DNA of 34,477 bases from Terriglobia bacterium (GTDB lineage: Bacteria > Acidobacteriota > Terriglobia > Bryobacterales > Bryobacteraceae), in assembly GCA_020073445.1 (NCBI GenBank), contig JAIQFE010000045.1, positions 1 to 34,477 of the forward strand, given 5' to 3'. Positions 9,875 to 33,748 of this stretch are shown in pieces (position 1 is the stretch's first letter; every line of letters starts with the position of its first letter). The notes below the pieces were generated by a model. That model did no database searches, was not told the origin of the DNA, and was given only the letters and a program-made list of their open reading frames with translations. The translations under genes and the position numbers were made by a program.

Positions 9875-12101
9875 TCACCCCTCGTTTAGCGGGCGTCGTT
9901 CATGTATCACCCTAAACTGTCGAATGATGGTTGTCTCCCAGGGCGTGAGCGCCGTTCCGGCCACAGCGAGACCGCCTTGGCCAGTATCAGCGATACTCAG
10001 AATCGCGCGATCCACATCAGCAGGGTCGGCAACAAGCGAAAGATCTTTGTAATGCTTATCTTGGAAGTCATTGCCAACGAATGGCGCTATAACAAACTGC
10101 GATTTCAACAGAGCTACAGCTTGATTAGGATCTCTGGCGAGATACTGACGCATGTGCGCGTGCACATTTTCTGGCCCTGCAGCCTTCGACCAAAGGTGCA
10201 GAATGAAAAGGTATTCTTGGGAAAACGCTGGAAGCAACGGTCCTCGGCCAGCTTGCAACGCGATCCGTTCGACCAAGGCCGCCTCAACTGCCTGGAGTTC
10301 CTCCGGACTGAATGGTGGCTCGCTGAGTTCATCGCGAAGTGGCCTCATCCAACCCAGGCACTCGCGGGCAAAGGATAGAGGTACCGCTATTGAGACAATG
10401 TCGCGCGCTTGGGCAAGCCTAGCTGCTGAATCAGGTAAGCGCTGAAGCAGCGTACGAATTAGAATGGCAGCCTGAGCAATCGGCGTGAGCCAAGGAATAT
10501 CGCCATGAATCTCCGGGATGTCAGTCCCACAACGAGCCACCACGCGCGCTAAACGTTGGGCTAGATCAGGCTCCATCTGACCAACCCGTCCTCTCATCTT
10601 AGAAATCAAGGTGCTGACGTTGGCTGGCGTGAGGATCTGGCGAAACCGCTGATCCGCGTCGGCTCCACTAAGCTGTCCAAGGTCGATCAGGAACTCATCG
10701 ATTCGCTGGTCAGCAATATCGCCTTCTGGAATGGAGCACGTTAGATAGCGACGCAGGTAATCCGCCGACGCCACCCGTTGCTCCCGGGACCATTGTTCCT
10801 CGTTGCGATGACCAAACTGTTTTGAACGAAATAATTCAGCTACCTGCGGAAAGAGCTTCTCAATCAAACGCTGTGCGTCGTCGCGTTCTTCGATAGAGAG
10901 CTTCGAAAACGTCTTCGCCAATAGTTCCAGGCTCGTTTCGTCAAGGTCCTGGAGAATCATGGGTGGGCGGCTGCCAGTAAAGCTTTCAGGCGACCTGCGG
11001 ATCTCCGAATAGAGCGAAGGGTAGAAGACTTTGACCCCCTCCAAAAGCATCACATCTAGCTGATTAACTTCTCCCGCGAGGAGTGGCATGGAAAAGGCCA
11101 GCGCATTCGCATAGCGCTTTGCGGTCCTTGGCGTGTCGAGCCTTGGCGCCAGGTACAAGAGAAAATTAAGTTGAAAGTCGCGCTCCGTTTCAGGAAGGAG
11201 TTCAATCCGAACGGCTTTCAAAGCACAATCGACGTGCCCCAGGCAATAATCCCGTAGCGCATCCGGATCTGCTCTCGGCAAGTTCAGTGGGACTTGGACG
11301 ATCTTTTCCAGGAAGCTTTGACCAGCGTCGAGATCTCCTGATCCGTATGCCTGCCCAAGTGCTTCGGCGACCATATCTTGATCGAAAGCCAAGACATAGG
11401 AGGTGTAGTTGAAATCCGCAGTCAGCTTGATAAGGCGGAACAGCGCGTGAATCTCCCGGCGGTCTAGCCGGTCGATGTCGTCAACGAGAATGACGACCCT
11501 CTTACGTTCTTCCATCAGTATTTGCTCAATCCGACGCTTGATCTCATCCAAGCTGACCGCGGATAGCGATGTACCTAAATCGGCAAGGGCTTGCCCGGCG
11601 GAAACTTTGACACCTTGAACATCCATAGAAGCGATGGCCGCCAATCCACCGTACTGAGACAACAGTTCTCCCACGCGCTCTTTACCAGTTGTGAGGGACC
11701 GTTTCAGTACGTCGGCCAGAGTGTCAAAAAAGCTTCTCAGGAGCATTCCTTCGTCTGCAAATCGCCATGGATTGAACCGGACGCTGGCGATGCTCCGGCG
11801 GCCTACCAGCTCTCCCTCGATATAGTCGAGTACTGTCGTCTTTCCTTCACCCGATTTGCCATAGATTGCAATGACAAGGCTACTGGGGTCTCCTCGCCGC
11901 GCCAGCGTTTCGGCCACACGCTTCGCGAGGTAGCCGTCGGAAGCGGTCTTCGCTGGGGTTGCTGGCGGGCAGATCCGAAAGGTATTCGTCGCCACCTGAG
12001 TCAGAATCATCCGAGGCGTCTCCAGGTTCCACAGCTCCCGAGCGGAGCCCCGCATCAGCAGTGACAGGAGTGTGAAACCAATTCTTGATGCGTTTCCACA
12101 T
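9875..12101 (-). pseudogene. KAP-family P-loop NTPase with apparent N-terminal frameshift
   Basis: The main frame (from 12055, 726 residues) contains Walker A GKSGEGKT (66-73), the KAP hallmark FNPWRF (94-99), Walker B VVILVDDIDRLD and later PRTAKRYANAL. KAP NTPases often sit in prophages and defence islands and can be membrane-linked. A better start is MWKRIKNWFHTP at 12099-12101 in another frame. It runs to SNPSEDRF, which belongs directly before YLAKRVAETLARR of the main frame. The switch lies near 11927-11940, implying a small indel. If real, this breaks the gene just before the P-loop; if a sequence error, the protein is about 740 residues and intact. No partner genes are next to it, and no transmembrane pair is obvious. 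Confidence 0.75.
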
Positions 12102-20275: not shown

Positions 20276-20455
20276 GTATTCTCCTTGGGCCTCCGGTGCA
20301 AGTTGTCCCGTTGATTGTACAGCGGGCGCCCCGGGGAACTCTAATAACGAATCGCTATCAAACCAGAGGTATTCTGAATGATTCCCGTCGGCCCAATTCC
20401 GCCCGCGCACTTTTGCCGGCGGGAGGTTATCGCTGCTAGAATCCCAACGAACGAC

Positions 20456-21934
20456 ATGAGACACGCTCTACTTGCCTTAGTCTGGGGTTCGGCCTCCCTG
20501 GTGCTTGCGCTCGACGGCGACGTCGGGATTCATGATCCATCCACTGTCGTTGTGGCTGGGGGGAAGTTTTACACTTACGGAACCGGCGGAACTTCGCTGG
20601 TTTCCGACGACGGTTGGACGTGGCGCAAGGGGACCGCGTTGCCGCTTCGACAATTGGCTCCGGATGTGATTCACATCGGGGACCGCTATTACCTCTACAC
20701 GGCGGCGAACAGCGGCCAGACCAAGGCGGACGTCAGCATGATCTGGACGAAGAGTCTTGACCCTGGCTCGCCGGATTACAAGTGGTCCGCACCTGTTGTC
20801 GTCGCTTCGTCGGACGGCATTGAAGACGCGAATGCCATCGATCCGGGTATCTTCCTGGATCCCACGGATGGCCGTTTATGGCTGACTTACGGTTCCTATT
20901 TCGGGTACATCCGGCTTGTGGAGATGGATCCGAAAACCGGAAAGCGACTTCGTCCAAACGAGGTGCCGCGTAATATCGCGATCAATTCGGAAGCCTCTGT
21001 CATGATCTACCACGATAGCTGGTACTACCTGCTGGTGACGCACGGCAGCTGCTGTCGTGGCGCGGATTCCGGGTATAACATCCGGGTGGGCCGTTCGAAG
21101 AAGGCGACGGGTCCGTTCGTCGACAACATCGGCGTGGATATGATCCAGGGCGGGGGGAAGTTGTTCGCGGGCTCGGGCGGGCGCGTGATCGGCCCTGGGC
21201 ATTTCGGCTTGCTGGACCTTGGCGACGGAGTGCAGAAGTTCTCTTTGCACTACGAGGCGGATCTGGATCGGGGCGGCGCAAGCGTGCTGGATATTCGTCC
21301 TTTGTTTTGGAGAGACGGCTGGCCTGTGGCGGGCGACAACGCGAAAGAGGGGACGTACCAGATCGAATCTCTGCGTACGGGCACGGTTCTCGAACTGGCT
21401 GTCGAGGGCGTGCCGGTCGGTGGCCGGCGAACCGGCCGCGGTGGGGGGCGCGGCGGAGCGCCCGTAACGGATGGAGGACCCGGAGGCTTGTTTGCAGGGA
21501 CCGGAGGTGTGATTCCTCCGCAGGATCCCGCCGCGGTTTCCGCCGCCTGGCCCAAAGGCAACCTGGACCTGCGCATGGGGAATTACATGAGTCAGGCGCA
21601 GCAGAAGTGGACCATCACACCAGTGACCGGCAGTGGCGGCTACCCCGGCGCGCCCTATTTCAAGATCACGATCGCGGGCACCGATCGAACACTCGCCGCT
21701 ACCGCGGAGGGCGAACTCGTAGTGCTTCCTGCCTTCAACGGATCACCTAAGCAGTTGTGGCGGTTAGACCAGCTTGCCGACGGATCCTGGAGCATCATGC
21801 CGAAGTCTGGGCCGAAGTCTGTATCTGGCCCGGAAGGACCGCTGAGTCTGTCGGCGGTCGGCAGCAGTTTTGCGACATTGGCCAAGTTCGATCCGGCCAG
21901 CGAGAAACAACGCTGGATCCTGAAGGCTCCCTAG
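20456..21934 (+). CDS. Secreted GH43-like glycosidase with C-terminal trefoil-like region
   Basis: The start at 20456 (MRHALLALVW) gives a signal peptide directly and 492 residues; the upstream in-frame extension lacks one. The five-bladed propeller of family GH43 is recognisable by HDPST with the base Asp27, NAIDPGIFLDP with Asp129 and the acid Glu179 in INSEASVM. GRLWLTYGSYFGYIRL and YYLLVTHGSCC are also typical of arabinan-degrading members. After about residue 315 comes a Gly/Arg-rich linker (GRRTGRGGGRGG), then a QQKW / KQLWRLD / KQRWIL pattern characteristic of a ricin-type beta-trefoil sugar-binding domain. It probably cleaves arabinan or arabinoxylan outside the cell. The next gene starts 8 bases downstream. 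Confidence 0.88.
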   Translation: MRHALLALVWGSASLVLALDGDVGIHDPSTVVVAGGKFYTYGTGGTSLVSDDGWTWRKGTALPLRQLAPDVIHIGDRYYLYTAANSGQTKADVSMIWTKSLDPGSPDYKWSAPVVVASSDGIEDANAIDPGIFLDPTDGRLWLTYGSYFGYIRLVEMDPKTGKRLRPNEVPRNIAINSEASVMIYHDSWYYLLVTHGSCCRGADSGYNIRVGRSKKATGPFVDNIGVDMIQGGGKLFAGSGGRVIGPGHFGLLDLGDGVQKFSLHYEADLDRGGASVLDIRPLFWRDGWPVAGDNAKEGTYQIESLRTGTVLELAVEGVPVGGRRTGRGGGRGGAPVTDGGPGGLFAGTGGVIPPQDPAAVSAAWPKGNLDLRMGNYMSQAQQKWTITPVTGSGGYPGAPYFKITIAGTDRTLAATAEGELVVLPAFNGSPKQLWRLDQLADGSWSIMPKSGPKSVSGPEGPLSLSAVGSSFATLAKFDPASEKQRWILKAP

Positions 21935-21942
21935 GGCGACAC

Positions 21943-22632
21943 ATGCGTACGTTTAAACGCGATGCTTCTTCTCTTGTGGTTGTTCTGGCGGCTGCAGCGG
22001 CCCTGCTGGCGGGTGCGATGACTGGCGGCGCTGCTGCTGTTCCCGCCAGTACTCTATCGCCGCCCAAGACGGCGGAAATGAAACCCGGACCCGATGGTTT
22101 CATCCGGCGCTGGCTGCTGCTGGAACCGATTCCTGCAGCAGGACTCACGGACAGCATTGTTCAGGCCGCGGTGAAGAAAGGCCCCTTTGTGAGCGAGCTC
22201 ACGGCCGTCCCACGCGATGGGGAGACGGTGGACATGGAAAGTGCGCAACTCACCTGGCACGCAGTGGACACGTCCAACTACAACGTAAACTTGTTTCATT
22301 TCGCGCGTTCCCTGGACAAGAACACTTCCAATGTTCTGTTCTGGGTAGTGACTGTGGTCCACGCCCCGCGCGAGATGCGGGATGTCCGGCTGGCCATAGG
22401 CTCCAACGCAGCCTCTGTGTGGTGGGTGAACGGTCAAGAGGTGATCGGGATTTATGGAGATCGCCAGACCGTTATCGACGACGGCGTGTCGAAGCGCCTC
22501 ACGTTAAAGAAGGGTGCCAACGTGATTCGCGCGGCCGTGGTCAATGGTGGAGGAGCCACCGATTTTTGTGCCCGGATTCTCGACGCCAACGACAAGCCCC
22601 TAACGGACTTCGTGGTGAACCTACTGAAATAG
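21943..22632 (+). CDS. Secreted beta-sandwich protein, possible carbohydrate-binding
   Basis: The start ATG at 21943 lies 8 bases after the glycosidase stop; GGGCGAC precedes it. The 229-residue product has a long Ala-rich signal sequence (about 10-36). Its mature part reads GFIRRWLLLEPIPAAG, LTWHAVDTSNYNVNLFHFA, RDVRLAIGSNAASVWWVNG and GANVIRAAVVNGGGATDFCARI. The pattern of VRLAIGS, VWWVNG and L-KGANVI is that of galactose-binding-like domains that present a hydroxyl-bearing face for sugars. It lacks hydrolase motifs and most likely assists the upstream glycosidase. Family membership is inferred from motif style. Confidence 0.7.
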   Translation: MRTFKRDASSLVVVLAAAAALLAGAMTGGAAAVPASTLSPPKTAEMKPGPDGFIRRWLLLEPIPAAGLTDSIVQAAVKKGPFVSELTAVPRDGETVDMESAQLTWHAVDTSNYNVNLFHFARSLDKNTSNVLFWVVTVVHAPREMRDVRLAIGSNAASVWWVNGQEVIGIYGDRQTVIDDGVSKRLTLKKGANVIRAAVVNGGGATDFCARILDANDKPLTDFVVNLLK

Positions 22633-22679: not shown

Positions 22680-22697
22680 CCTCATGTATACTGCAGG
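22680..22697. promoter_or_regulatory. GTATAC operator-like motif 1
   Basis: The motif CATGTATACTG with flanking CCT and AGG arms lies 52 bases before the start of the MBL hydrolase gene. It matches motifs before three other transcription units, one of them the GntR/FCD repressor itself. TATACT could also act as a -10 hexamer here. Confidence 0.5.
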
Positions 22698-22748
22698 CGA
22701 TCCGCTGACGAGCTCCGCAACGAATCAACACGAGGTGACTAATCCGCC

Positions 22749-23765
22749 ATGCGAATGAACGCTACGATCTTATTCCCACTGTGCCTGAGTACCTTGCTGG
22801 CGCAAGATACCGGAACAGCGCACAAGGCCGCTGCCACAGCGCTCCTGAATTCGAATAACAGCGGTGCGGCGCGCCTGGCGTGCCCAGCTACAATCGGCCC
22901 GGTGTCAACCGCGAACTCGCCCGGTGGTCCAGGCCGGGCGGGAGGCCCTCCAGGCGGCGCGGCGAAGGGTGGCGGTGCGGCGAAGGGCCGTGGGCCGGCT
23001 GCGACTCCGCCGAAAGAGAACTGGTACGCCGAGGGCGGCCAGGTGTTCGACAACCTCTACATGCTGACCACCAAAGTGAACAGCGCGTGGGCCGTGAAGA
23101 CCAGCCAAGGGATCATTCTGATCGACACGCTTTTCGGTTACGCCGCGCAGGACGCGATCGTGGATGGACTGAAGAAGGTGGGCCTCGATCCGGCTGACAT
23201 CAAGTACATCATCGTGAGCCATGCGCATGGCGATCATGACGGCGCCGTCAAATTCCTGCAGGATACGTACAAGCCGCGCATCATCATGGGACCGAAGGAT
23301 TGGGAGCTTTCCGCCCGCGAGGCCGATCCTCCGCGTCACGACATTGAGGCAACGGATGGGCAGAAGGTGACGCTGGGCGATACGACGGTCACCATCTACA
23401 TCACCCCAGGCCACACCGGCGGCACGCTTTCCGTGCTGGTTCCCGTGAAGGACCACGGTCAGCCGCATCTTGCCATGGAGTGGGGCGGAACGGCGTTGAG
23501 CGGCGGGACTTCGAAGGAAATGCTGGAGTCCTATATCTCCAATGCGAAACGATTGAAGGACATCAGCGATGGCGCGGGCGCTGACGTCATCATCGTCAAC
23601 CACACCGAGTACAACGATGCACTGAACCGCTTTGAGCGGACCAAGGCGCGGAAGGCCGGCGAGCCTAATCCGTGGATCGTAGGCAAGGGAGAGGTCGAGA
23701 AGTACCTCACGGTGGTTGAGGAATGCGCGAAAGCCTGGCTGGCTATCGGCGACGGGCGTCCGTAG
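22749..23765 (+). CDS. Secreted MBL-fold metallo-hydrolase (subclass B3-like), second copy
   Basis: This 338-residue protein has a short signal peptide (about 5-18, ending LLAQD). Residues 57-90 form a low-complexity Gly/Ala/Lys/Pro stretch. The MBL domain includes NSAWAVKTSQGIILIDTLFGY, the ligand motif HAHGDHDGA (158-166), ITPGHTGGTLS and the late VNHTEYND. All metal ligands appear present. It is a paralogue of the MBL gene at 16108-17049: both have an FLQDTY/YFQDTY helix and a DW motif, but this one lacks the Ala/Pro insert after DW. A GTATAC motif upstream suggests control by the GntR regulator near 31 kb. The substrate is unknown. Confidence 0.88.
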   Translation: MRMNATILFPLCLSTLLAQDTGTAHKAAATALLNSNNSGAARLACPATIGPVSTANSPGGPGRAGGPPGGAAKGGGAAKGRGPAATPPKENWYAEGGQVFDNLYMLTTKVNSAWAVKTSQGIILIDTLFGYAAQDAIVDGLKKVGLDPADIKYIIVSHAHGDHDGAVKFLQDTYKPRIIMGPKDWELSAREADPPRHDIEATDGQKVTLGDTTVTIYITPGHTGGTLSVLVPVKDHGQPHLAMEWGGTALSGGTSKEMLESYISNAKRLKDISDGAGADVIIVNHTEYNDALNRFERTKARKAGEPNPWIVGKGEVEKYLTVVEECAKAWLAIGDGRP

Positions 23766-23852
23766 GGAAATCCCCGACCAAGCCCAGTGTGGATACGAGA
23801 ACACTAAATCGGCACAAGTCGAGTCGGGCCTGGTTCGGCAGGAACCAGTGGA

Positions 23853-23873
23853 TACAGGATGTATACACCTGTA
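23853..23873. promoter_or_regulatory. GTATAC operator-like motif 2 with TACAGG/CCTGTA arms
   Basis: TACAGG and CCTGTA form perfect inverted arms around the 9-base core ATGTATACA. This lies 82 bases before the alpha/beta hydrolase start at 23955. The same arms recur at the gntR/capA promoter (31330-31353) in the opposite order around a related core. Confidence 0.6.
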
Positions 23874-23954
23874 CAATCTAGGGATGCGTAAGTATGCGCC
23901 CGGCCTAAGCCGCCAGTGCTGCCAGTGCGCGGAAGATCAAAAGGAGGCTTCACA

Positions 23955-24896
23955 ATGAAATTCGCTGTTGCACTATGTTTAGTGGCTGCGTGTGCGTGGG
24001 GACAGGAGGGAACGGGAGCGTTCCCGGCAATCCTGGAACAAGATCCGAGTCTCCCGACGCACACGGTGTATCGGCCGCAGGACCTCTCCAAAGTGAAGGG
24101 GAAACTCCCCATCATTGCGTGGGGCAACGGAGCCTGCGTCAACAACGGGCTGTCGCACCGCAACTTCCTGATGGAGATTGCGTCGCATGGCTACGTGGCG
24201 ATCGCTATCGGACCTCCGATCGCGCTTCCGGCTCAAGGCAAGGGCGCTCCGAATGGCGGCGACGGCAAGCAGGGCGCGCCGAAAGGGGATGCTAAGCAGG
24301 GTGCCCCGAAGGGCGATGGCAAGCAGGCGGCCGCGGGTCCAGCCACGAAATCGTCCCAGTTGCTCGATGCCATCAACTGGGCGTTAGCCGAAAATAGCCG
24401 GAAGGGCAGCCCGTATAACGGCAAACTGGATGCGTCGAAGATTGCGGTGATGGGAATGTCGTGCGGGGGGATTCAGGCCTACGCGGTGGCGACGGACCCG
24501 CGCGTCAAACTCGTCGGCATCTTCAACAGCGGCATCTTGCCCGCGCCCAGCGGCCCGGGAACGCCGGCCATGGAGGACGTGCGCAAGGACCAGTTGGACA
24601 AGCTGCATTCGCCCATTTTCTATGTGACCGGGGACAAAACCGACATCGCCTATGAGAACGGCATGGACGACTTCAAGCGAATCACCAAGGTGCCCGCGAT
24701 CCACACGTTTAAAGATGGCGTCAGTCATGGCGGCACCTACAGCCAGCCGAACGGCGGTGATTTTGCGCGGGTCGCCGTGGCGATGCTGAACTGGCAGTTG
24801 AAGGGCGAGAAGAGCGAATCCAAGATGTTCCTGAGCGCGAATTGCGGCCTGTGTCAGGAGGCCGGCTGGCACGTAGAGACCAAGGGGTACAAGTAG
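23955..24896 (+). CDS. Secreted alpha/beta hydrolase (cutinase/PETase-like group)
   Basis: The start ATG at 23955 has AGGAGG 7 bases upstream and a signal peptide (MKFAVALCLVAACAWGQ); the longer upstream frame is not needed. The 313-residue product has LPIIAWGNGACVNN (oxyanion region), GMSCGG with nucleophile Ser169, GDKTDIAY with Asp230 as likely acid, and GVSHGG with His258. The closing NCGLCQEAGW could form a disulfide. Between the second and third core elements there is a Lys/Gly/Ala/Pro repeat of the unit KQGAPKGD (about 97-126). It probably hydrolyses polyesters or lipids outside the cell. A strong inverted repeat upstream suggests repression by the local GntR protein. Confidence 0.83.
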   Translation: MKFAVALCLVAACAWGQEGTGAFPAILEQDPSLPTHTVYRPQDLSKVKGKLPIIAWGNGACVNNGLSHRNFLMEIASHGYVAIAIGPPIALPAQGKGAPNGGDGKQGAPKGDAKQGAPKGDGKQAAAGPATKSSQLLDAINWALAENSRKGSPYNGKLDASKIAVMGMSCGGIQAYAVATDPRVKLVGIFNSGILPAPSGPGTPAMEDVRKDQLDKLHSPIFYVTGDKTDIAYENGMDDFKRITKVPAIHTFKDGVSHGGTYSQPNGGDFARVAVAMLNWQLKGEKSESKMFLSANCGLCQEAGWHVETKGYK

Positions 24897-24943
24897 GAGG
24901 CGGGATTGGTGGAGGGTACTCGGGTCGAGCCTGTGTGCCCTCA

Positions 24944-25986
24944 TTAGTTTGTGCTGTCGTACATCGTGATCTTGACCCCCCCATTCGCTATCCCGGGATT
25001 CGAACTCAGGAATTTGCCGGTGTTGAGATAGGCGTAGGGGCTGTCGACGCGTGCCTCGAAAATCGGAACCAAGCCGCCGGTGCTGGTGGTATTGCGAACG
25101 ATAATGATCTCGCCGTCCGATGCTTGCCACAGGTAGCGCGCGTCGATGGCTGGAGGCCCGGAGAGATTCTGATAGTCCGCGCCGCCTGAAAGAACTTTGC
25201 CGGTGATTCGTCCGCTCAGGTCGCCGCCAGTGATGGGAATGATGTTGCGGTTGCCGCGCTTGCTGGCCCCCACCCGTTGAGACGGGCTCAGTCCGACGGA
25301 TTCGACGATCAGTTCCTTGCCTTGCTTCTCATCGGCTCCCTTCATGCGGTTATTCCACGGCTGCGGCGGAGCATCCGACGGCTTGACGATCCGGGTGACA
25401 CTGGCCGCTCCAGTGGGAATCGCGACGGACGAAACATCGTAAACACGGACCGTGAGCGTCTTGGCATTTTCATCCAGAATGCGCTGCGCAACGTACTTGC
25501 CGGAGTTCATCCACTCCGCTGAACTTCCATTGGGAGCCTCAAAATCCATGGCATGCGGACGTCTTTTGAATCCGCTCCCACACCCGCGTTGCGCGAATAG
25601 ATATACTTCCCGTCGCTAGTCTTGAAGACGAAGATCTGCTCCACCTCCACCGTGCCGTTGGAGAGCGTGAGTTCGAAGTCCAAAGCGCCGGTCATCACCG
25701 TGCCCGTGAATTTCGGGCCGGTAGTCGTGCCCTCCAGGGCGACGGCCACGCGGCGGTTTCCGTACTGCGTCTTACCGATCTTCGCCAGCCGATCGAGCTT
25801 CAGCTGAGTTTCGAAGATCAAGGAGCCGCTTTCCGGATTGGGAATACCGTCCTTCATGCCGCAATCCCACGAGCCGTGCGGAAGGAGCACCTTCGCCTTA
25901 CTCTGACCTTTTGCCAACTGCACTGCGGGACCCGCAATCGCAGCAGCCCCGGCCGTCAGGAGAAACGTGCGTCTGTCACTTTTCAT
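24944..25986 (-). pseudogene. Tat-exported double-DUF3237 protein, split by a frameshift
   Basis: The N-terminal frame (25986 to about 25550) starts MKSDRRTFLLTAGAAA, a twin-arginine signal, followed by one DUF3237-like domain ending KYIYSRNAGVGADSKDVRMP. The natural continuation MDFEAPNGSSAEWMNSGK is found in another frame from 25549 and leads through a second domain (PITGGDLSGRITGKVLSGG, GEIIIVRN, YLNTGKFLSSNPG) to a stop at 24944. One base appears to be missing at about 25549-25553. DUF3237 proteins are small beta-barrels of unknown function that often occur in degradation loci. Undamaged, the protein would have about 346 residues. It is either a recent pseudogene or a sequencing artefact. 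Confidence 0.75.
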
Positions 25987-26028
25987 GTGGAAATATTTGC
26001 TCCTTCGCGCAACCTGTGTTCGAGACCA

Positions 26029-26946
26029 CTACTTCTTTCGTTGCCGGTCGAAGAAATCGAACACCGCGGGCAACACCAGGGCCACCATCCGGCCATGATC
26101 TGCCTCGACCTCCATGTATTCCAATGGAAATCCCTGCGACTTCATCCAGGCCTGCATCGCCCGGCTTCCCGCCAGCGAAGGTGTCGCTCCCGTGCCTTCG
26201 GTCATGAACACCGGCATCTTCCGCATGCGATCCCACGGATACGTGGACTCCTCCACAAATGGGCCAGACATGGGAGCAATCGCCTTCCAATACTCCGCGT
26301 ACTTCGCTCCGAGATACCATACGCCGCCGCTCCCCATCGAATGGCCCATGAGGAACATCGAACCGCGGTCGACGGGATACTCATTGAGCACCATCTCCAG
26401 GACGTTGATCACGTCCTGCTCGCTGCGTTCGAGAGTCTGAGCGTTCTGCACGCACGCGGTGGTCCGCTGCTGCGCAGCTGTTTCCGCCTGGCCGAACACG
26501 GCGGGAAGCCGCAGGCATGTTCCGTACGCGCCCATAGGATTCCAACCCAATGGGGACACCAGCAGGTAGCCATGATCTTCCGCGAGCTTCAGAAGCTGCT
26601 TGTTGTTCTGATCCAGATACTGGCTCTCATTACTGCCTGCGCCGTGCAGCATTATCACCAGCGGCAGCTTCGCCTTGCCATCCCAAGTCGTCGGTACATA
26701 GACGCGATAGGCCAGATCGGTCTCGGTGCCAGGGAATCGATACGTTCGCCGCTGGTCGCCTTTGGCCTGCCAGCCTGGGCTGCCCGGCTTTGCCAGGGAC
26801 TTCGCCAATTGCTGCGATTGGGCGATCTGGGTTTTGGGCACTAGCTTGGTCCCGAACGCAATCACCCCATTGTCCTGCCCGACCGCGTTCTGCACCGCTG
26901 CGAGCAGTGGAAACAGAACGACCAGTTTCAACAGCGCCTTTGTCAT
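26029..26946 (-). CDS. Secreted alpha/beta hydrolase, third esterase paralogue
   Basis: This 305-residue protein has a signal peptide (about 5-23, ending AVG). Core motifs are LPLVIMLHGAGSNES, GYLLVSPLGWNPMG and GHSMGSGG with nucleophile Ser203, followed by a His in EADHG (284). In place of the HGD-D-VVP acid loop of the two paralogues near 19 kb, this one reads MTEGTGATPSLAG, with no Asp, so the catalytic acid is missing or relocated. It lacks the Gly/Lys-rich insert of its relatives but has a Cys-bearing loop (about 140-166). It is divergent from the MFS transporter gene with only 71 bases between, so a shared control region is likely. Confidence 0.83.
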   Translation of the reverse strand: MTKALLKLVVLFPLLAAVQNAVGQDNGVIAFGTKLVPKTQIAQSQQLAKSLAKPGSPGWQAKGDQRRTYRFPGTETDLAYRVYVPTTWDGKAKLPLVIMLHGAGSNESQYLDQNNKQLLKLAEDHGYLLVSPLGWNPMGAYGTCLRLPAVFGQAETAAQQRTTACVQNAQTLERSEQDVINVLEMVLNEYPVDRGSMFLMGHSMGSGGVWYLGAKYAEYWKAIAPMSGPFVEESTYPWDRMRKMPVFMTEGTGATPSLAGSRAMQAWMKSQGFPLEYMEVEADHGRMVALVLPAVFDFFDRQRKK

Positions 26947-26989
26947 GTCGAAAAGAGTGTAACAGCCATAAAAGACAGCCGCAAGCCGA

Positions 26990-27010
26990 GTGTATCCATC
27001 ATGTATACTT
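26990..27010. promoter_or_regulatory. GTATAC operator-like motif 3, upstream of MFS operon
   Basis: The core ATGTATACTT, preceded by a GTGTATCC half-like element, ends 8 bases before the GTG start of the transporter gene. It lies between divergent genes, so it could act on both. TATACT at 27004-27009 would suit a -10 hexamer for a transcript that begins at or very near the start codon. Confidence 0.55.
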
Positions 27011-27017
27011 ACCCGGA

Positions 27018-28247
27018 GTGAATCGAAACTGGATAATCTCCGTCGCCGCCGTCATTGTGGCGATGATGGCCATCCAGATGGCAAGCCTCGGTTTCTCGCC
27101 GCTATTGCCGGCGATTCAGCAGGATCTAGGGGCATCCTACTCTCAGATAGGGCTGTTTACCGGCATGTACGGCATCATCGCGCTGCTGGTTAGCTTGCCC
27201 GCCGGCGTGTTCGCAGCCCGCATCGGTGAGAAGCGCGCGCTTCTGATCGGACTGGCCGTCACGGCCGCCGGACTTGCCGCTCTCTCGCAGGCCACTCGCT
27301 ACGACGTCGCTCTCGCGTTTCGCGCTCTTTGGCTGATCGGTTACCGTACCGCCTTCATCGGCGTGTTTACCGCAATGGCGATGGTGACACCGGAGCAGTA
27401 TCGAAGCCGGACCATGGGCATTCTCGGCGCTATGGCGGCCTTCGCGTCAGTCATCGGAGCGCCATTCGGCACCCGAGTGGCAGTCTGGCTCGGGTGGAGG
27501 GGCGGCATTCAAGGGTACGCCGCAATCACTCTCCTCGGCGCGATCGTTTTCGGCCTGCTGTACCATCGCCAGCGCTCGCAATCGCCGGGCGTTGCCGGAC
27601 CGCCTGGGACTTCGCCGCACGGTGCTTCAATGACGCGTGCCGGCGCGGTCTCGGCTCTTCGCAATCCGATCATCTGGAGCATGATTCTGTTGGGCCTCAT
27701 CAACATGGGAGGGTTCAGTGTGACCTTTTTCGTGCCGTACGCGGTGAAGTCGGTCTTCGGCATGGGGGCTCAGGACGCCGCGTCGATCATCAGCGCCAGT
27801 TACCTGGTGAGCATCCCGCTGAATCTGGGCTTCGGCTATCTGTGCGACCGGTATTCCCGTTGGAACTTGATGATCTGGCTTGCGGTGCTTCTGGTTCCCG
27901 CCAGCTTTGCAGTCATGTCGCGAGACCTTCTGGTCTTCCGAATCGCCGTCGCTCTGATTGTCTCCTTGGGCCACGCCGCCACCAACCAGATCTATGCGAT
28001 CGGTAGCTCCCTGTTGCCGAAGGAAGAGGTCGGGAAGGGAATGGGAATCGTGGGATTGGGGAGTGGGATCTTCGGGTACCTGGGACCGCAGATGCTGGGG
28101 TATCTGCGGGATGCAACCGGAGGCTTCACGGCGGGGTGGGTTTTTGTGGCCTGTGCCGCGGTGTTGGCCCTTGGCGACCTCCTGATTCTGCGGAGGTACA
28201 GCCTCAAGCGGCGAGCTTTGTATCCAGAAGAGATACAAGTCGCATGA
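27018..28247 (+). CDS. MFS transporter
   Basis: The start GTG at 27018 is chosen because it places the first membrane helix (WIISVAAVIVAMMAIQMASLGF) at the N-terminus; the longer open frame upstream is the shadow of the divergent esterase. The 409-residue product has about twelve membrane helices and the MFS signature between helices 2 and 3 (GVFAARIGEKRALLIG). A weaker repeat of it lies in the second half (FGYLCDRYSRWNLMI). It probably imports an organic acid by proton symport. The stop overlaps the next start by ATGA, so it is co-translated with the dehydratase-like subunit and likely supplies its substrate. Confidence 0.9.
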   Translation: MNRNWIISVAAVIVAMMAIQMASLGFSPLLPAIQQDLGASYSQIGLFTGMYGIIALLVSLPAGVFAARIGEKRALLIGLAVTAAGLAALSQATRYDVALAFRALWLIGYRTAFIGVFTAMAMVTPEQYRSRTMGILGAMAAFASVIGAPFGTRVAVWLGWRGGIQGYAAITLLGAIVFGLLYHRQRSQSPGVAGPPGTSPHGASMTRAGAVSALRNPIIWSMILLGLINMGGFSVTFFVPYAVKSVFGMGAQDAASIISASYLVSIPLNLGFGYLCDRYSRWNLMIWLAVLLVPASFAVMSRDLLVFRIAVALIVSLGHAATNQIYAIGSSLLPKEEVGKGMGIVGLGSGIFGYLGPQMLGYLRDATGGFTAGWVFVACAAVLALGDLLILRRYSLKRRALYPEEIQVA

Positions 28248-29257
28248 GCAAAAATCGCATCGCTGGAATCACCTCAAACACGGTTCCCTGGGAGATTCTA
28301 CGGGCGGCCGGCTACACTCCGGTTTTACTCGAGGATGAGGCTGGACCAACTCCTCACGCGGACCGGTGGATGGAGGATGTGTTTGACCGCAGATTCCGGG
28401 TGATTTTCGATCGCCTTTGCGCGGGCGCCTGGAATCACCTGGATAGGGTGGTGATCCCGAGAACGTCTGAGCAGGAACACAAGCTCTACTTGTATCTGCG
28501 GGAAATTGCGCGCACGCAACCTGCCGGCGCGATTCCGGAACTTTATTTCTACAACCTCCTGCATACCCGCACACCGGAGTCTTACGACTACGGTTTGGAG
28601 CGGACTCGTCAGATGATGCGCGATTTCGACGTCTCCGAAGACGAACTGCGCGATGCGATCGCTGAGAGCAATCGCGCCCGTGGTTGTGTCCGGGACATCC
28701 TCCAGAAGCGGCGAGAGGGGCGCCTGGAAGGATCAGCTGCGATCGAAATGATCCGCGGATTTTATTCGGAAGATCGTGGCGTGTTTGCCAATCGCGTACT
28801 TGACCGGCTCAAAAACATGCAGGAGCCGGTTGCGGCTCATCGGCCGCACATCCTGATCAAAGGGGCGCCGGTGAAGGATGCCTCGCTGCATCACCTGGTA
28901 GAAGAAGCCGGCGGCTATGTGGTCGCGGAGGATGATTGGCGAGGTTCTCGTGCCGCGGGCGATACCGATGTTTGCGTGAACAAGGATCCAGTGACTGCAA
29001 TTGTTGAGAAGTACTTCTATGACGAGGTGAGCCCCAGGGTTCATCCAGTCGAGCATCGAGACGCTTGGTTCAAGCGCGAGATCGCGAGAGGGCATGTCGA
29101 CGGCGTCTTGTTCTATGTCCCGCTGGAGGATGACGTTCAGGGCTGGGACTATCCTGAACAACTCGCGTATCTGGAATCGCGATCGATACCGAGCGTCGTG
29201 GTGCGCGACAACGATGCACCACTCGCCGATTTCGTCGGAAGCCTCCGTCGAGAATAG
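28244..29257 (+). CDS. 2-hydroxyacyl-CoA dehydratase-like subunit A, lacking usual Cys
   Basis: This 337-residue protein starts at the ATG overlapping the transporter stop. It shows the family pattern of BcrC/HgdB-type subunits: IAGITSNTVPWEILRAAGYTPVLL at the N-terminus, LDRVVIPRTSEQEHKLYLYLRE, HILIKGAPVKDASLHHLVEEAGGYVVAEDD in the middle and VDGVLFYVPLEDDVQGWDYPEQ near the end. Canonical members use a Cys after the IP/H-T segment and another in the DDxC motif to hold a [4Fe-4S] cluster. Here those positions are Ser75 and Trp. A normal cluster in this subunit is therefore unlikely. It is followed 2 bases later by the partner subunit. The family reaction is removal of water from (R)-2-hydroxyacyl-CoA; whether it runs here is open. 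Confidence 0.82.
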   Translation: MSKNRIAGITSNTVPWEILRAAGYTPVLLEDEAGPTPHADRWMEDVFDRRFRVIFDRLCAGAWNHLDRVVIPRTSEQEHKLYLYLREIARTQPAGAIPELYFYNLLHTRTPESYDYGLERTRQMMRDFDVSEDELRDAIAESNRARGCVRDILQKRREGRLEGSAAIEMIRGFYSEDRGVFANRVLDRLKNMQEPVAAHRPHILIKGAPVKDASLHHLVEEAGGYVVAEDDWRGSRAAGDTDVCVNKDPVTAIVEKYFYDEVSPRVHPVEHRDAWFKREIARGHVDGVLFYVPLEDDVQGWDYPEQLAYLESRSIPSVVVRDNDAPLADFVGSLRRE

Positions 29258-29259
29258 TC

Positions 29260-30525
29260 ATGGCGCAGAAGCAACTGACATCGACGATCGCGGCGTCGGA
29301 AGGCCAAAAGGCCTGGTTCGCCTCGCTGCGCGACCGAGTCTTTGAAACTCGCGCAGCTTATGCCATCGGCCAGGCGGACATGCCGTTCGAGCTGTTTCAA
29401 ACGATGGACGTGCCCATGGTCAGCAATCAGTGGTGGGCCGCCGTGGTGTCCGCGAAGAGATTGGCTCCTTATTATCTGGACAAGCTGAACGAAGCCGGCT
29501 TTCACAAGGGGTTGTGCCGGTACTGCAGCCTGTCCATGGCCTCGACGGTGTTGGGTGACACCAGTCAGGCTCCGTGGGGTGGGCTGCCGAAGCCGGCATT
29601 GCTCGCGGCTCGCCTCACGTGCGATTGCGTGCAACGGGTTTTTGAAACCTGGGCTGTGCATTTTGGCGCGGAGTTGATTCTGTTGGACGCTCCCGCGGCG
29701 ACGCATCTGCCGCCACGATGGTGGGAGCAGAGCCGGCATCATTGGCGCGAACTGTTCGAAGACCATAGGTTACAGTTCATGGTGCGCCAGTTCGAGCGCT
29801 TGATCGCATCGCTCGAACGGATCTCCGGACGGAAGTTCGATCCGGATCGATTACGTACCTTGATGGAGCAAGTGAATCGTCAGGAGGAGTACTTCGAAGA
29901 GGCGAAGCTAGCGATTTGCAACGCGCCGAAGACACCGGTTCGGATGCACGAGCAGATTACAAACGTCATGGCGGCGCAGTGGCAGCGAGGATCGGACTGG
30001 GCTGTCTCGCAAGCGAAGGCCTTTCGCGATGAAGTGGTGAGCCGAGCGGAACAGGGGATCGCTGCCTGTCCAAACGAGCGCCTGCGGATCATGTGGGTCG
30101 GCGCCGGCCTGTGGTACGACCTGGATTTCTACACCGCTTTTGAAGAATCGCACGGGGCCGTGTTTGTCTGGTCGATGTATCTGGCGTTTGGTCCCGATGG
30201 ATACATCCGCTATGGCTTGGATGATCCTTTGTTGGCGCTGGCCAGCCGCACGGTCAGCATGAACGAACAGCTGCATAATCCGCCGTGGGCCAATGAATGG
30301 ATTGTGGAACAGGCTCGCAGCCACCGGATCGATGCTGCGTTCGTTTTGACGCCTCTTGGAACGCGCCCCTCGGCAACGGGAACGCGTTTCGTCGAGATCG
30401 CTTTGGAAGAGGCGGGAATTCCGGTCTTTTCTGTTCATGCGGACATGGTGGACGCCCGGCTCTGGGATGCGAAGAAGATGCGCCGGGATGCGTCCCGTTT
30501 CCTGGATCAAGTGGGGCGCCGATGA
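29260..30525 (+). CDS. 2-hydroxyacyl-CoA dehydratase-like subunit B
   Basis: This 421-residue protein starts 2 bases after the first subunit's stop. It follows the second-subunit pattern: LPRYYL-like APYYLDKLNEAG, HKGLCRYCSLSMAS (Cys86 and Cys89), GGLPKPALLAARLTCDCVQRVFETWA (Cys121 and Cys123), and a late VWVGAGLWYDLDFY-like segment. Unlike subunit A it retains Cys residues where a cluster could bind. The required ATP-dependent activator (BcrA/HgdC type) is not in the window and would have to be supplied from elsewhere. It converges with the gntR gene, whose stop lies 8 bases away. It probably forms a heterodimer with the product of 28244-29257. Confidence 0.82.
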   Translation: MAQKQLTSTIAASEGQKAWFASLRDRVFETRAAYAIGQADMPFELFQTMDVPMVSNQWWAAVVSAKRLAPYYLDKLNEAGFHKGLCRYCSLSMASTVLGDTSQAPWGGLPKPALLAARLTCDCVQRVFETWAVHFGAELILLDAPAATHLPPRWWEQSRHHWRELFEDHRLQFMVRQFERLIASLERISGRKFDPDRLRTLMEQVNRQEEYFEEAKLAICNAPKTPVRMHEQITNVMAAQWQRGSDWAVSQAKAFRDEVVSRAEQGIAACPNERLRIMWVGAGLWYDLDFYTAFEESHGAVFVWSMYLAFGPDGYIRYGLDDPLLALASRTVSMNEQLHNPPWANEWIVEQARSHRIDAAFVLTPLGTRPSATGTRFVEIALEEAGIPVFSVHADMVDARLWDAKKMRRDASRFLDQVGRR

Positions 30526-30533
30526 CGGATGGT

Positions 30534-31298
30534 CTAGGTCAGTTCCGCGCGGATCTGGTCCATGAAGGACTCGACGTCCTGGGGCACCGCCGCTTCTCGT
30601 TCCCGTTGGTCGAACTCATTGAGACGGCTCTTCTGACTCTTAAGAATATGGCGATGAACGCAGTCGGCCGCGGCTTGCGGATCGGCTGCTTGCAGCGCAC
30701 TGATCAGATCCAGATGATCGCGGTTGATCTGCTTCAATGTGGCGATATTGTGACCTCCACGGCGAGCTGCGAAAATGCGGATCAACTGCCGGATTCCGGC
30801 CAAGGTCTTGAGGCTGCGTTGGTTACCTGCAAGCTTCATGATGTAGGTGTGAAACGCAAGATCGGCTACCTCGAAACGTTCCATCTGTTTTTCGTCCAGG
30901 ACCGGCTTCCGGCTGGCGTCCAGCTCCTTGATCAGCGAGGTGAGGGCCGAAGCGATGGAGCGAAGGTCGCGAATCTCTGTGGGCGACGGCGCGCGTCCAG
31001 CGACCGTGCGCGCGGCCAGGCCTTCCAGCGCTTCCCGCATTTCAAACAATTCCCGGATGTCGTCCCGGTCGAGAGTGATCACCACCACGCCGCGCCCGGG
31101 GACCGATTCCAGGAGTCCTTCACTAACCAGTTGCCGGATCGCTTCACGGGCAGGTGTCCGGCTGATGCCCAGTTCCTTGGAAATGGTGACGTCGGAAACG
31201 GGTTCTCCGGCGCGAAATTCGCGGGTCGAGATCTTGCGCTGGATGTGATGGTAGGCCACCTCGCGCCTCGGTCTGGAAGCCTGGGATGCTTTGGTCAC
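30534..31298 (-). CDS. GntR-family transcriptional regulator, FCD subfamily
   Basis: The GTG at 31298 is taken as start; the frame extends to a TTG at 31343, but that codon lies inside the operator-like palindrome. The product of about 254 residues has the winged helix-turn-helix GntR domain (AYHHIQRKISTREFRAGEPVSDVTISKELGISRTPAREAIRQL region, ending ESVPGRGVVV). An all-helical FCD effector domain follows, with LFEMREALEGLAAR, DLAFHTYIMKLAGN and DHLDLISALQAADPQAA. The metal-binding Asp/His set (D..H, H in DHLDL, H in CVHRHI) appears to be present. FCD regulators usually repress catabolic genes until a carboxylic acid binds. It is divergent from capA and likely controls itself and the motif-bearing units. 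Confidence 0.9.
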   Translation of the reverse strand: MTKASQASRPRREVAYHHIQRKISTREFRAGEPVSDVTISKELGISRTPAREAIRQLVSEGLLESVPGRGVVVITLDRDDIRELFEMREALEGLAARTVAGRAPSPTEIRDLRSIASALTSLIKELDASRKPVLDEKQMERFEVADLAFHTYIMKLAGNQRSLKTLAGIRQLIRIFAARRGGHNIATLKQINRDHLDLISALQAADPQAAADCVHRHILKSQKSRLNEFDQREREAAVPQDVESFMDQIRAELT

Positions 31299-31329
31299 GG
31301 TTTCTAGTGATTCTATCAGTGCATTTGGT

Positions 31330-31353
31330 CCTGTACATGCCAATGTATACAGG
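31330..31353. promoter_or_regulatory. GTATAC operator-like motif 4 in gntR/capA divergent promoter
   Basis: CCTGTA and TACAGG form perfect 6-base inverted arms 12 bases apart, with an ATGTATACA core on the right side. It lies between the GntR gene and the divergent CapA-like gene, the usual place of an autoregulatory operator. The same arms and core recur at 23853-23873. Confidence 0.65.
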
Positions 31354-31376: not shown

Positions 31377-32516
31377 GTGGGTGAGCCTTTAACTCTGCAG
31401 ATGGCCGGCGACTTGATTCTCGATGAGCCCAATCCCGACGCTCTGTTTGATCTGGCACGCCATCAGCTAAAGGCGTGTGACGTCCTCGTGGGGCACGTCG
31501 AAGTTCCTCATACGGCACGGGGTATAGAGACGCATTTCGATGTTCCGGCACCGGCCAGCGATCCGGCGCATCTCGCTGCCCTGCAGCGCGCGGGATTTCA
31601 CGTGGCGACACTGGCCGCCAATCACATCGCGGACGCGGGACCGAATGGAGTGGAGGACACGATCGCCGAACTCCGCCGCCTGGGCCTCGCGACCACCGGC
31701 GCGGGCATGAATCTGACAGAGGCAAGGCAACCGGCGATTGTCGAAAGGCAAGGACTGCGCCTGGGATTTCTCAGCTACAACTGTGTGGGACCGCGCGAGT
31801 CCTGGGCCGGAAGAGATCGAGCTGGTTGCGCGTATGTACACGTCTTGACGCATTACGAACTGGACCATGCATCTCCGGGCGGTCCACCCACGGTATACAC
31901 GTTTGCCGAACCAGACACGCTTGAGGCTATGGCGGCCGATATAGAAGCGCTCCGGCAGAAAGTCGACGTCCTGATGGTTGCCCTGCACAAGGGCCTCGGG
32001 CACACACCCGCGACCGTCGGCATGTATGAACGGCAAGTCGCCAAAGCAGCGATTGATGCGGGAGCCGATGTGGTAGTGGGCCATCATGCCCACATTCTGC
32101 AGGGGATGGAGGTTTACAAAGACCGGCCGATCTTTCATGGACTCGGCAATTGTGCGATCGCTACCAAAGCGCTGAACGTCGATGGAAACTCCAGCCCGGA
32201 ACGTCGCGCGTGGGCCGAACGCAGGCGGAAGTTGTTCGGTTTTGAGCCGGACCCCGAGTACACAACTTATCCGTTTCATCCCGAGGCGAAGAACGCCATC
32301 CTCGCCTACTGTGAGGTGGATCGCAGCGGAGTCCGGACCGCCGGGTATCGCCCGTGCTTCGTGAACCGCCACTCCCAGCCGGAAGTGGTGGGAAATGACG
32401 AGCGCGGACAAGCAGTCGCGCGCTACGTTCAGGACGTCAGCGCACGAGCAGGGCTGAACGCCGCGTTCGAGTGGACTGGCGATCGGGTCCAGTTTTACCG
32501 CAGAAGGAATTTATGA
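31377..32516 (+). CDS. CapA-family (poly-gamma-glutamate synthesis-type) phosphoesterase
   Basis: This 379-residue protein starts at GTG 31377 with GGAGG 7 bases upstream. CapA/PgsA metallophosphoesterase motifs are present in order: LQMAGDLILDEPN, LVGHVEVPHTA, VATLAANHIADAGPNG, LRLGFLSYNCVGP, and GADVVVGHHAHILQGMEVYKDRPIFHGLGN. There is no signal peptide or membrane anchor, unlike capsule proteins, which suggests a cytoplasmic enzyme with a calcineurin-like metal site. Relatives occur in catabolic operons with unknown reactions. It overlaps the CoA-transferase start (ATGA), so the two act together. The precise role is unknown; capsule synthesis is unlikely here because no capsule genes are nearby. 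Confidence 0.85.
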   Translation: MGEPLTLQMAGDLILDEPNPDALFDLARHQLKACDVLVGHVEVPHTARGIETHFDVPAPASDPAHLAALQRAGFHVATLAANHIADAGPNGVEDTIAELRRLGLATTGAGMNLTEARQPAIVERQGLRLGFLSYNCVGPRESWAGRDRAGCAYVHVLTHYELDHASPGGPPTVYTFAEPDTLEAMAADIEALRQKVDVLMVALHKGLGHTPATVGMYERQVAKAAIDAGADVVVGHHAHILQGMEVYKDRPIFHGLGNCAIATKALNVDGNSSPERRAWAERRRKLFGFEPDPEYTTYPFHPEAKNAILAYCEVDRSGVRTAGYRPCFVNRHSQPEVVGNDERGQAVARYVQDVSARAGLNAAFEWTGDRVQFYRRRNL

Positions 32517-33748
32517 TGTCGCAACCGCGTCCACTCGAGGACATCACCGTTCTCGACCTCACAACGGCCTTGGCCGGACCGTACGCCACGTTTCTGTTGG
32601 CGGGCCTGGGGGCTCGCGTCATTAAGATCGAGAACCCGGCGGGGCCGGATTCCTGCCGTGCGAACGCTCCCTACATCGGTCCCGAAGGACCGCATTTGAC
32701 ACGCCAGCACCCGGATGATATTTCCGTATCCGCTATCAACCGGCTTCGCGGCAAGAAGGCGGTGACTTTGAACATGAAGCATCCGGGATCCCGCGCCGTG
32801 TTCGAGAGGCTCGTGAAGAAGGCCGATATGCTGGTCGAAAACTTCAGCCGCGGCGTGCTGGAGCGGTTGGGCGCCGGCTACGCTGACGTGCATCGCATGA
32901 ATCCCCGGCTGCTGTACTGTTCGATCACTGGATTCGGGAGTCAGGGCGAAGGCTCGGGGAAAGCGATGGACGCCATCATCCAGGCGCTCAGCGGCGCAAT
33001 GATGACTTCGGGCGCCGCGGGCGATCCTCCTGTCCGCGTTGGTGTTCCGTTCGCGGATTTGTGTACCCCTCTGTTTGGAGTGATCGGGCTTCTTGCGGCG
33101 TTGCATCAGTCGCAGCGCACGGGACTGGGGCAGCACATCGACGTCTCAATGCTGGGCGTGATGACGTCAATGGTCGCTTCCGAGCCGTTCGATCTGCTGG
33201 AACGCTGCGGAGTGCCACAGCGCACGGGACAGACCGTGCCTCGTCTGGCGCCCTTCGGAGTTTATGCGACAGCGAACGGCTACGTGGCGATTTGCGCGCC
33301 TACGGAAGCGTTCGCTTCTTCCCTGTTCCATGCGATCGGCCGCCCGGAATTGTGCGATGACGAGCGATTCCGGACTCGCGACGCTCGCGTCCAGAACGTC
33401 GCCGAGGTGGATCGTGTGGTCGGCGAATTCACCGCGGTGCGTCAAACAGCGGATGTCGTCGCGATCCTGGCGCAGGCTGGCGTCCCGGCCGCCGCAGTTC
33501 GCAGTCCCGCGGAAGCGGTGCGAGACCCGCAGGTGGTCGCCCGCGGAGAAACCGTCCGGCTGCAGCATCCTGGCGTGCCAGACGCTGATGTCTATGGGCC
33601 CGGCCTTCCGATCGTGTTCTCCGGCTCGGCAACCGGCTTCGATCAACCGCCGCCGGGCATCGGCGAGCACAATGGCGAAGTCTATGGAGACCTTCTGGGT
33701 TACACGCAGTCGGAACTGCGTGAACTCCAATCCACAGGTGTCATCTAA
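32513..33748 (+). CDS. CaiB/BaiF-family (class III) CoA-transferase
   Basis: The start MMSQPRPLED at 32513 overlaps the previous stop by ATGA and has AAGGA upstream; the longer frame is a shadow. The 411-residue product has the family N-terminus VLDLTTALAGPYATFLLAGLGARVIKIE, the segment RGKKAVTLNMKHP, and GFGSQGEGSGKAMDAIIQALSG with the catalytic Asp153. GQHIDVSMLG and LAPFGVYATANGYVAICAP also match. Class III enzymes move CoA between carboxylic acids. In this operon it would activate the imported acid to a CoA thioester for the dehydratase-like pair, although those genes are in a separate transcription unit. A ribosome site GGAGGAA just after its stop leads into a truncated gene. Confidence 0.92.
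   Translation: MMSQPRPLEDITVLDLTTALAGPYATFLLAGLGARVIKIENPAGPDSCRANAPYIGPEGPHLTRQHPDDISVSAINRLRGKKAVTLNMKHPGSRAVFERLVKKADMLVENFSRGVLERLGAGYADVHRMNPRLLYCSITGFGSQGEGSGKAMDAIIQALSGAMMTSGAAGDPPVRVGVPFADLCTPLFGVIGLLAALHQSQRTGLGQHIDVSMLGVMTSMVASEPFDLLERCGVPQRTGQTVPRLAPFGVYATANGYVAICAPTEAFASSLFHAIGRPELCDDERFRTRDARVQNVAEVDRVVGEFTAVRQTADVVAILAQAGVPAAAVRSPAEAVRDPQVVARGETVRLQHPGVPDADVYGPGLPIVFSGSATGFDQPPPGIGEHNGEVYGDLLGYTQSELRELQSTGVI

Follow-up and report, generated by a model that had tools for sequence, protein, structure and literature searches.

What regulator, if any, reads the short palindrome that stands before several units of one gene cluster in a soil acidobacterium? The question is raised by contig JAIQFE010000045.1 of the Terriglobia bacterium assembly GCA_020073445.1, a stretch of 34,477 nucleotides (the window, which makes up all of contig C16 in a genome of 6.58 Mb), where a gene for a GntR/FCD regulator (gntR) lies among genes for hydrolases, an MFS transporter, HGD-D family proteins, CapA, and a CoA transferase. 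An original prediction, made from the window alone, had taken a shared GTATAC motif before four units as the sign of one GntR/FCD regulon. Our analysis gives this regulon a good probability of being real for three units, namely the divergent gntR/capA-CoA transferase promoter, an alpha/beta hydrolase gene (abh1), and the unit encoding the MFS transporter and two HGD-D proteins (HgdA-like and HgdB-like, together HgdAB); membership of the fourth, a gene for a metallo-beta-lactamase-fold hydrolase (MBL), is uncertain. As judged from sequence, the FCD-GntR protein is quite probably a local, autoregulated repressor of those three units acting via ATGTATACA sites.

The motif ATGTATAC occurs at 22684–22691, 23859–23866, 27001–27008, and 31343–31350, with no other copy in the window. 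Shuffling the window 100 times gave a mean of 0.09 copies and a maximum of 2, against the 4 real ones, and the genome holds 30 copies compared with 14 of a reversed-pattern control. When 30 points were placed at random, four fell inside 8,667 bp in 49 of 200,000 trials. Each of the four gaps that precede a plus-strand unit or a divergent pair holds one site, where the intergenic rate of the genome would give about 0.004; this placement was computed with the gntR start set at 31298 and with two small site-free gaps excluded, one convergent (24897–24943) and one between same-strand genes (25987–26028). The four proposed positions are thus borne out by the exact count, the shuffles, and the rarity of the motif in the genome, and their location near promoters holds as well. 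Scanning the genome confirmed the rarity, and outside the window the motif lies mostly in coding frames (18 of the remaining 26 sites, with 8 intergenic, by rough gene calls), the coding share of the fetched sequence around these sites being 87%. The ninth base is A at abh1 and gntR/capA and T at MFS and MBL; the form with T, ATGTATACT, includes TATACT, a possible −10 box.

Two of the 11 genomic TGTATACA sites are in the window, and seven of the other nine are within frames of at least 864 bases; two outside the window are possibly intergenic, one on contig C62 and one on C89 (474-base frame). We considered a wider regulon in this genome and found it unsupported, since most TGTATACA sites beyond the window (7/9) are inside long frames; the regulon looks local rather than genome-wide. 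The C62 site precedes a small gene pair that resembles, by eye, an antitoxin/toxin pair.

The sites have the following anatomy, where ATGTATACAT is the operator of the regulator Atu1419 described below.

31343..31352, predicted operator (ATGTATACAG) of the gntR/capA divergent promoter, accompanied by a TGTACAT box (31332–31338); matches 9/10 letters of ATGTATACAT
23849..23877, predicted operator of abh1, in the tandem form TGGATACA-N3-TGTATACA-N2-TGTACAAT, with the ATGTATACAC core at 23859–23868; 9/10 letters
26991..27010, predicted operator of MFS, TGTATCCA-N3-TGTATACT, with its core at 27001–27010 and the likely GTG start at 27018; 9/10 letters
22684..22693, candidate operator or −10 box of MBL (ATGTATACTG); 8/10 letters

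By eye, a second, weaker box begins 10 to 12 bp from the core as a conserved partner; at the MBL site of the window this box is not clear. A tandem pattern spanning the abh1 and MFS forms matches twice in this genome and five times among 23 genomes of the genus, in exactly the three that carry gntR and always at these promoters; because the pattern was built from the very sites found, which weighs against its use as support, only its absence elsewhere is informative. The TACAGG/CCTGTA arms that had been pointed out at two of the sites are present there, but they did not survive as a candidate operator: the pair at 23853–23873 faces the opposite way from the pair at 31330–31353, and the gntR/capA pair is missing in two relatives, G119 and G198, of which G198 retains one arm. 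With the pair lost in both relatives, we conclude that the arms are not the operator.

These two relatives, both of the same genus, carry this gntR. G119 keeps the sites before abh1, MFS, and gntR/capA, and G198 keeps those before MFS and gntR/capA, its contig ending inside abh1. In the gntR/capA gap, the flanks have diverged and TGTAC plus ATGTATACA are retained in both. At MBL, GTATACT is found in both G119 copies of the gene; one of these, a second, 97% identical copy on contig C51 (L173), is located outside the cluster and has this promoter element too. GTATAC was not found in the fetched loci of MBL homologues (78–83% identity) in G210 and G089. The 7.5-kb contig of G210 keeps MBL-abh1-CoA transferase and has neither gntR nor GTATAC, and in G170, also of the same genus, which has MFS, HgdAB, and CoA transferase but lacks gntR, the MFS/CoA-transferase gap contains no GTATAC. 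Five loci with no GntR in the fetched stretch (L108, L112, L113, L118, and L114, the last from G170) show no GTATAC in their promoter gaps; in L114/L078, one TGTATACA lies just beyond the hgdB end, between two convergent frames. Conservation in relatives had been set beforehand as a test, and the sites proved to be kept wherever gntR is kept; they are absent from those loci, examined in G210, G170, and other genera, in which part of the gene set persists but no GntR is encoded locally.

Outside the genus, GTATAC lies upstream of 10 of 16 gntR homologues (37.8–50.4% identity), compared with 7 of 136 other genes and none of 11 gntR genes at 30–35% identity, and it ranks first for enrichment among the 64 palindromic hexamers (Fisher P 9e-8). 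The second-ranked hexamer, GTCGAC, is found before 7/16 overall and before 5/7 in family f2, which was reduced from 11 to 7 members by removing four near-identical rows. At L079 6105–6125 (G123), a palindrome seen by eye, GTATGCACTGTGCATAC, stands before an MFS gene, with a 50% GntR homologue nearby, and is perhaps a further operator variant.

The regulator itself matches Pfam GntR at 54.6 bits (cut-off 27) and FCD at 71.9 bits (cut-off 24.3). The suggestion that it is of the UxuR/ExuR kind was not upheld, the two NCBIfam models scoring 20.8 bits (cut-off 442) and 18.8 bits (cut-off 396); every NCBIfam model it matched, these included, is far under its cut-off. Its best matches among solved structures are 7xp0, 7u5q, and 6z74. 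The last is Atu1419 of Agrobacterium fabrum, whose other structures are 6za0, 6za3, 6za7, and 6zab. Atu1419, an FCD-GntR of the VanR group, acts as a repressor of two further genes besides its own, recognizes 5′-ATGTATACAT-3′ palindromes that sit on −10 boxes or in the spacer, and touches DNA through the side chains of Ser44, Arg45, Thr46, and Arg49, with backbone contacts by Arg31 and Glu34 (PMC7797058). In a phmmer alignment to 6z74, with positions counted by hand, Ser44, Arg45, Thr46, Arg49, and the wing residue Gly66 are identical in the cluster GntR, Arg31 is replaced by Pro, and Glu34 by Asp; the last change may be harmless, Glu34 contacting DNA through its main chain. Of the zinc-site residues (Asn/Asp plus three His), Asp and the first His line up with 6z74, and two further His with 7xp0 only. 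We predict that the regulator works like Atu1419 and not like UxuR/ExuR, and, because Arg31 and Glu34 differ, we do not call it an orthologue.

We were concerned that ATGTATACT at MFS and MBL could be a sigma-70 −10 box alone, in near-leaderless promoters, leaving true operators at abh1 and gntR/capA only. TATACT has 5/6 letters of TATAAT, eight bases separate it from the likely MFS start codon, five of the eight other intergenic ATGTATAC sites of the genome read ATGTATACT, and the MBL site of the window lacks a clear second box; moreover, T follows 8 of the 14 GTATAC sites before the 16 homologues, which makes the −10 box a real confounder. This account does not, however, explain why the MFS site has its TGTATCCA partner at 11 bp in a tandem confined to this cluster, and the promoter scan listed neither the MFS nor the MBL site; their −10 placement is by eye. 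Since the Atu1419 palindromes themselves overlap −10 boxes (PMC7797058), the operator and −10 readings are not exclusive, and we consider the −10 box by itself an unlikely explanation. It is less likely still that the sites belong to a regulator encoded elsewhere and that gntR is a mere neighbor. The genome does contain other GntR-like first-look candidates (21 in one search and 25 in another), with the cluster GntR alone at E ≤ 1e-20, and G467, from a more distant genus, retains an operator-like array with no GntR detected; yet the sites accompany gntR in 3 of the 23 genus genomes, gntR carries its own site, and GTATAC is enriched before gntR homologues of other genera. Chance clustering of a short palindrome could be argued from the eight GTATAC copies in the window, four of them beyond the claimed set, but the random trials, the expected number in the gaps, and the conservation of the sites in relatives make this extremely improbable.

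Several further observations weigh against one regulon. Genome-wide, TGTATACA is not enriched (11 copies against 11 for the control), family f2 has GTATAC before gntR in 2/7, and the promoter-like matches as a set are at chance level (4 found versus 4.1 in shuffles). Most of the MFS and abh1 gaps is conserved in the relatives, which makes for weaker footprints there, and the three gntR genomes are closely related, so the co-occurrence of sites and gntR is not independent. On balance, the rarity of the motif, its conservation, its co-occurrence with gntR (3/23), its presence before homologues, and the parallel with Atu1419 speak for one regulon; MBL is the part for which membership is weak.

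From the sites, their conservation, and their co-occurrence with gntR, all of which are observed, we infer promoter positions, binding, repression, and an effector as follows. The product of 30534–31298 (minus strand), a regulator of the Atu1419 (VanR-group) kind, would bind ATGTATACA, often plus a weaker box about one helical turn off, within the gntR/capA-CoA transferase, abh1, and MFS-HgdA-HgdB promoters, and would probably act also on an esterase gene divergent from MFS; action on MBL is less certain. By position, the sites appear to sit on the −10 box (MFS and MBL, by eye), in the −35/−10 spacer (abh1, where the site spans the promoter-like match TGGATA-17-TACAAT), and at the −35 (gntR, where a promoter-like match places the box), and a repressor bound at such positions would block RNA polymerase. 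Its release would be brought about by a small molecule, probably one of the intermediates in degradation of the acid.

The genes of the cluster are as follows.

30534..31298, minus strand, GntR/FCD regulator (gntR; Pfam GntR + FCD), likely start GTG 31298, not TTG 31343
31377..32516, plus strand, CapA (PGA_cap), first gene of the divergent unit
32513..33748, plus strand, CoA-transferase family III
27018..28247, plus strand, MFS transporter
28244..29257, plus strand, HGD-D family protein, HgdA-like, under the cut-off of each NCBIfam model listed
29260..30525, plus strand, HGD-D family protein, HgdB-like, under the cut-off of each NCBIfam model listed
23955..24896, plus strand, alpha/beta hydrolase (abh1), matching PETase and Chlorophyllase models slightly under the Pfam cut-offs
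22749..23765, plus strand, metallo-beta-lactamase-fold hydrolase (MBL), the best 25 of 44 NCBIfam models all far under cut-off
26029..26946, minus strand, PHB-depolymerase-like esterase, divergent from MFS over a common 71-bp gap
24944..25986, minus strand, a frame with Pfam DUF3237 (24944–25549) and an adjoining frame (25507–25986)

A TTG start for gntR at 31343 would overlap the operator, and G198 and G119 carry a stop codon in frame (TAG or TGA) at that position or immediately after it, which points to GTG 31298 as the likely start. The esterase is a neighbor in many related clusters, and both frames of 24944–25986 have relatives adjoining abh1 in L216 and L225. The proposed catabolism of one acid is consistent with this gene content. 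At 20378–22632 of the window, a GH43 protein and the next frame have 58% and 51% relatives in a Saprospiraceae contig (L117), where they adjoin the same HgdAB/CapA/CoA-transferase cluster, so the cluster may extend upstream. A KAP-family P-loop NTPase at 9875–12055 is unrelated to the regulon.

Scanning the species-genome collection gave 32 loci, with the CoA-transferase/HgdA/HgdB core in several phyla, often accompanied by MFS, CapA, or the esterase. One distant acidobacterial genus contributes four loci (L109, L111, L120, and L121) in which a GntR of 42–44% identity shares its unit with CapA and CoA transferase, and HgdAB is oriented divergently to that unit. The intervening Hgd/CoA-transferase gap is mostly unalike except for an array around TGCATGCA, found in 4/4 gntR-bearing genomes, and a similar array precedes abh1 in G405, G483, G323, and G467. 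A single symmetric base-pair change, next to the G contacted by Arg45, separates TGCATGCA from TGTATACA, and in the recognition helix this genus has SRTPVHEA (His for Arg49) where most other homologues have SRTPxREA. Gly66 is also changed, to Asn; homologues elsewhere that carry TGTCGACA upstream, perhaps a third operator version, share this Asn, which makes His49 the better candidate for the switch. Arg49 contacts a phosphate in Atu1419 (PMC7797058), so a causal link from His49 to the operator is one that we infer. TTGACA follows 34 to 36 bases after the TGCATGCA start, directly downstream of the array, in 6/8 arrays, a geometry that may reflect conversion of a repressor into an activator; the arrays checked include L121 6290–6340, L111 8716–8760, L216, and L225. 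Among 15 family genomes, 4 have a detected GntR and 8 match the array pattern, with 29 rows in all; 11 of these rows lie at the promoters just named and the other 18 elsewhere. Weighing against a shared regulon, G467 has the abh1 array and no GntR was found there, and the gntR of the distant genus has no array directly before it, the array standing at the far end of the CoA transferase-CapA-gntR unit. We propose only tentatively that the regulon may have stayed together in different acidobacterial families even as its operator changed from TGTATACA to TGCATGCA, along with the Arg49-to-His replacement. Two of the 18 rows elsewhere are one place, L202 1480–1540 (G483 C37), an array-like TGCATGCA near a contig end whose target gene was not identified; G483 also has a second partial GntR copy.

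Literature searches gave no match for GntR/FCD with operator GTATAC and the Atu1419 paper alone for TGTATACA with GntR; for ATGTATACAT, that paper was, among the matches listed, the sole GntR one by title. Searches on GntR regulons or binding sites in Acidobacteria and on HGD-D with CapA returned nothing relevant by title and abstract, and among the matches listed for dehydratase in Acidobacteria none holds the dehydratase term. The main text of a survey of GntR regulators (PMC4494728) does not mention Acidobacteria. The cluster offers a testable regulator-operator-gene set for an uncharacterized HGD-D/CoA-transferase/CapA pathway of several phyla, and the paired lineages (Arg49 with TGTATACA, His49 with TGCATGCA) would allow a change in the FCD-GntR recognition code to be measured under a constant regulon.

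Compared with known systems, the cluster GntR is unlike UxuR/ExuR, being far under both model cut-offs. It resembles the GntR regulators of the survey in the GT-N2-AC core and in an additional half-site near it, extra half-sites 7 to 12 nt from the site center being known for such regulators (PMC4494728). Atu1419 differs in its targets, which are hydroxycinnamate genes and not CapA, CoA transferase, HGD-D, MFS, and hydrolases; its proposed effector is N5,N10-methylenetetrahydrofolate (PMC7797058), and its second box is 109 to 190 bp away, compared with 10 to 12 bp here. Tetramer formation and DNA looping also belong to the Atu1419 kind of repressor. Like Atu1419, the cluster GntR has ATGTATACAT-type sites (8–9/10 letters), which seem to occupy the −10 box or the spacer, and it is predicted to repress its own gene along with a local catabolic cluster.

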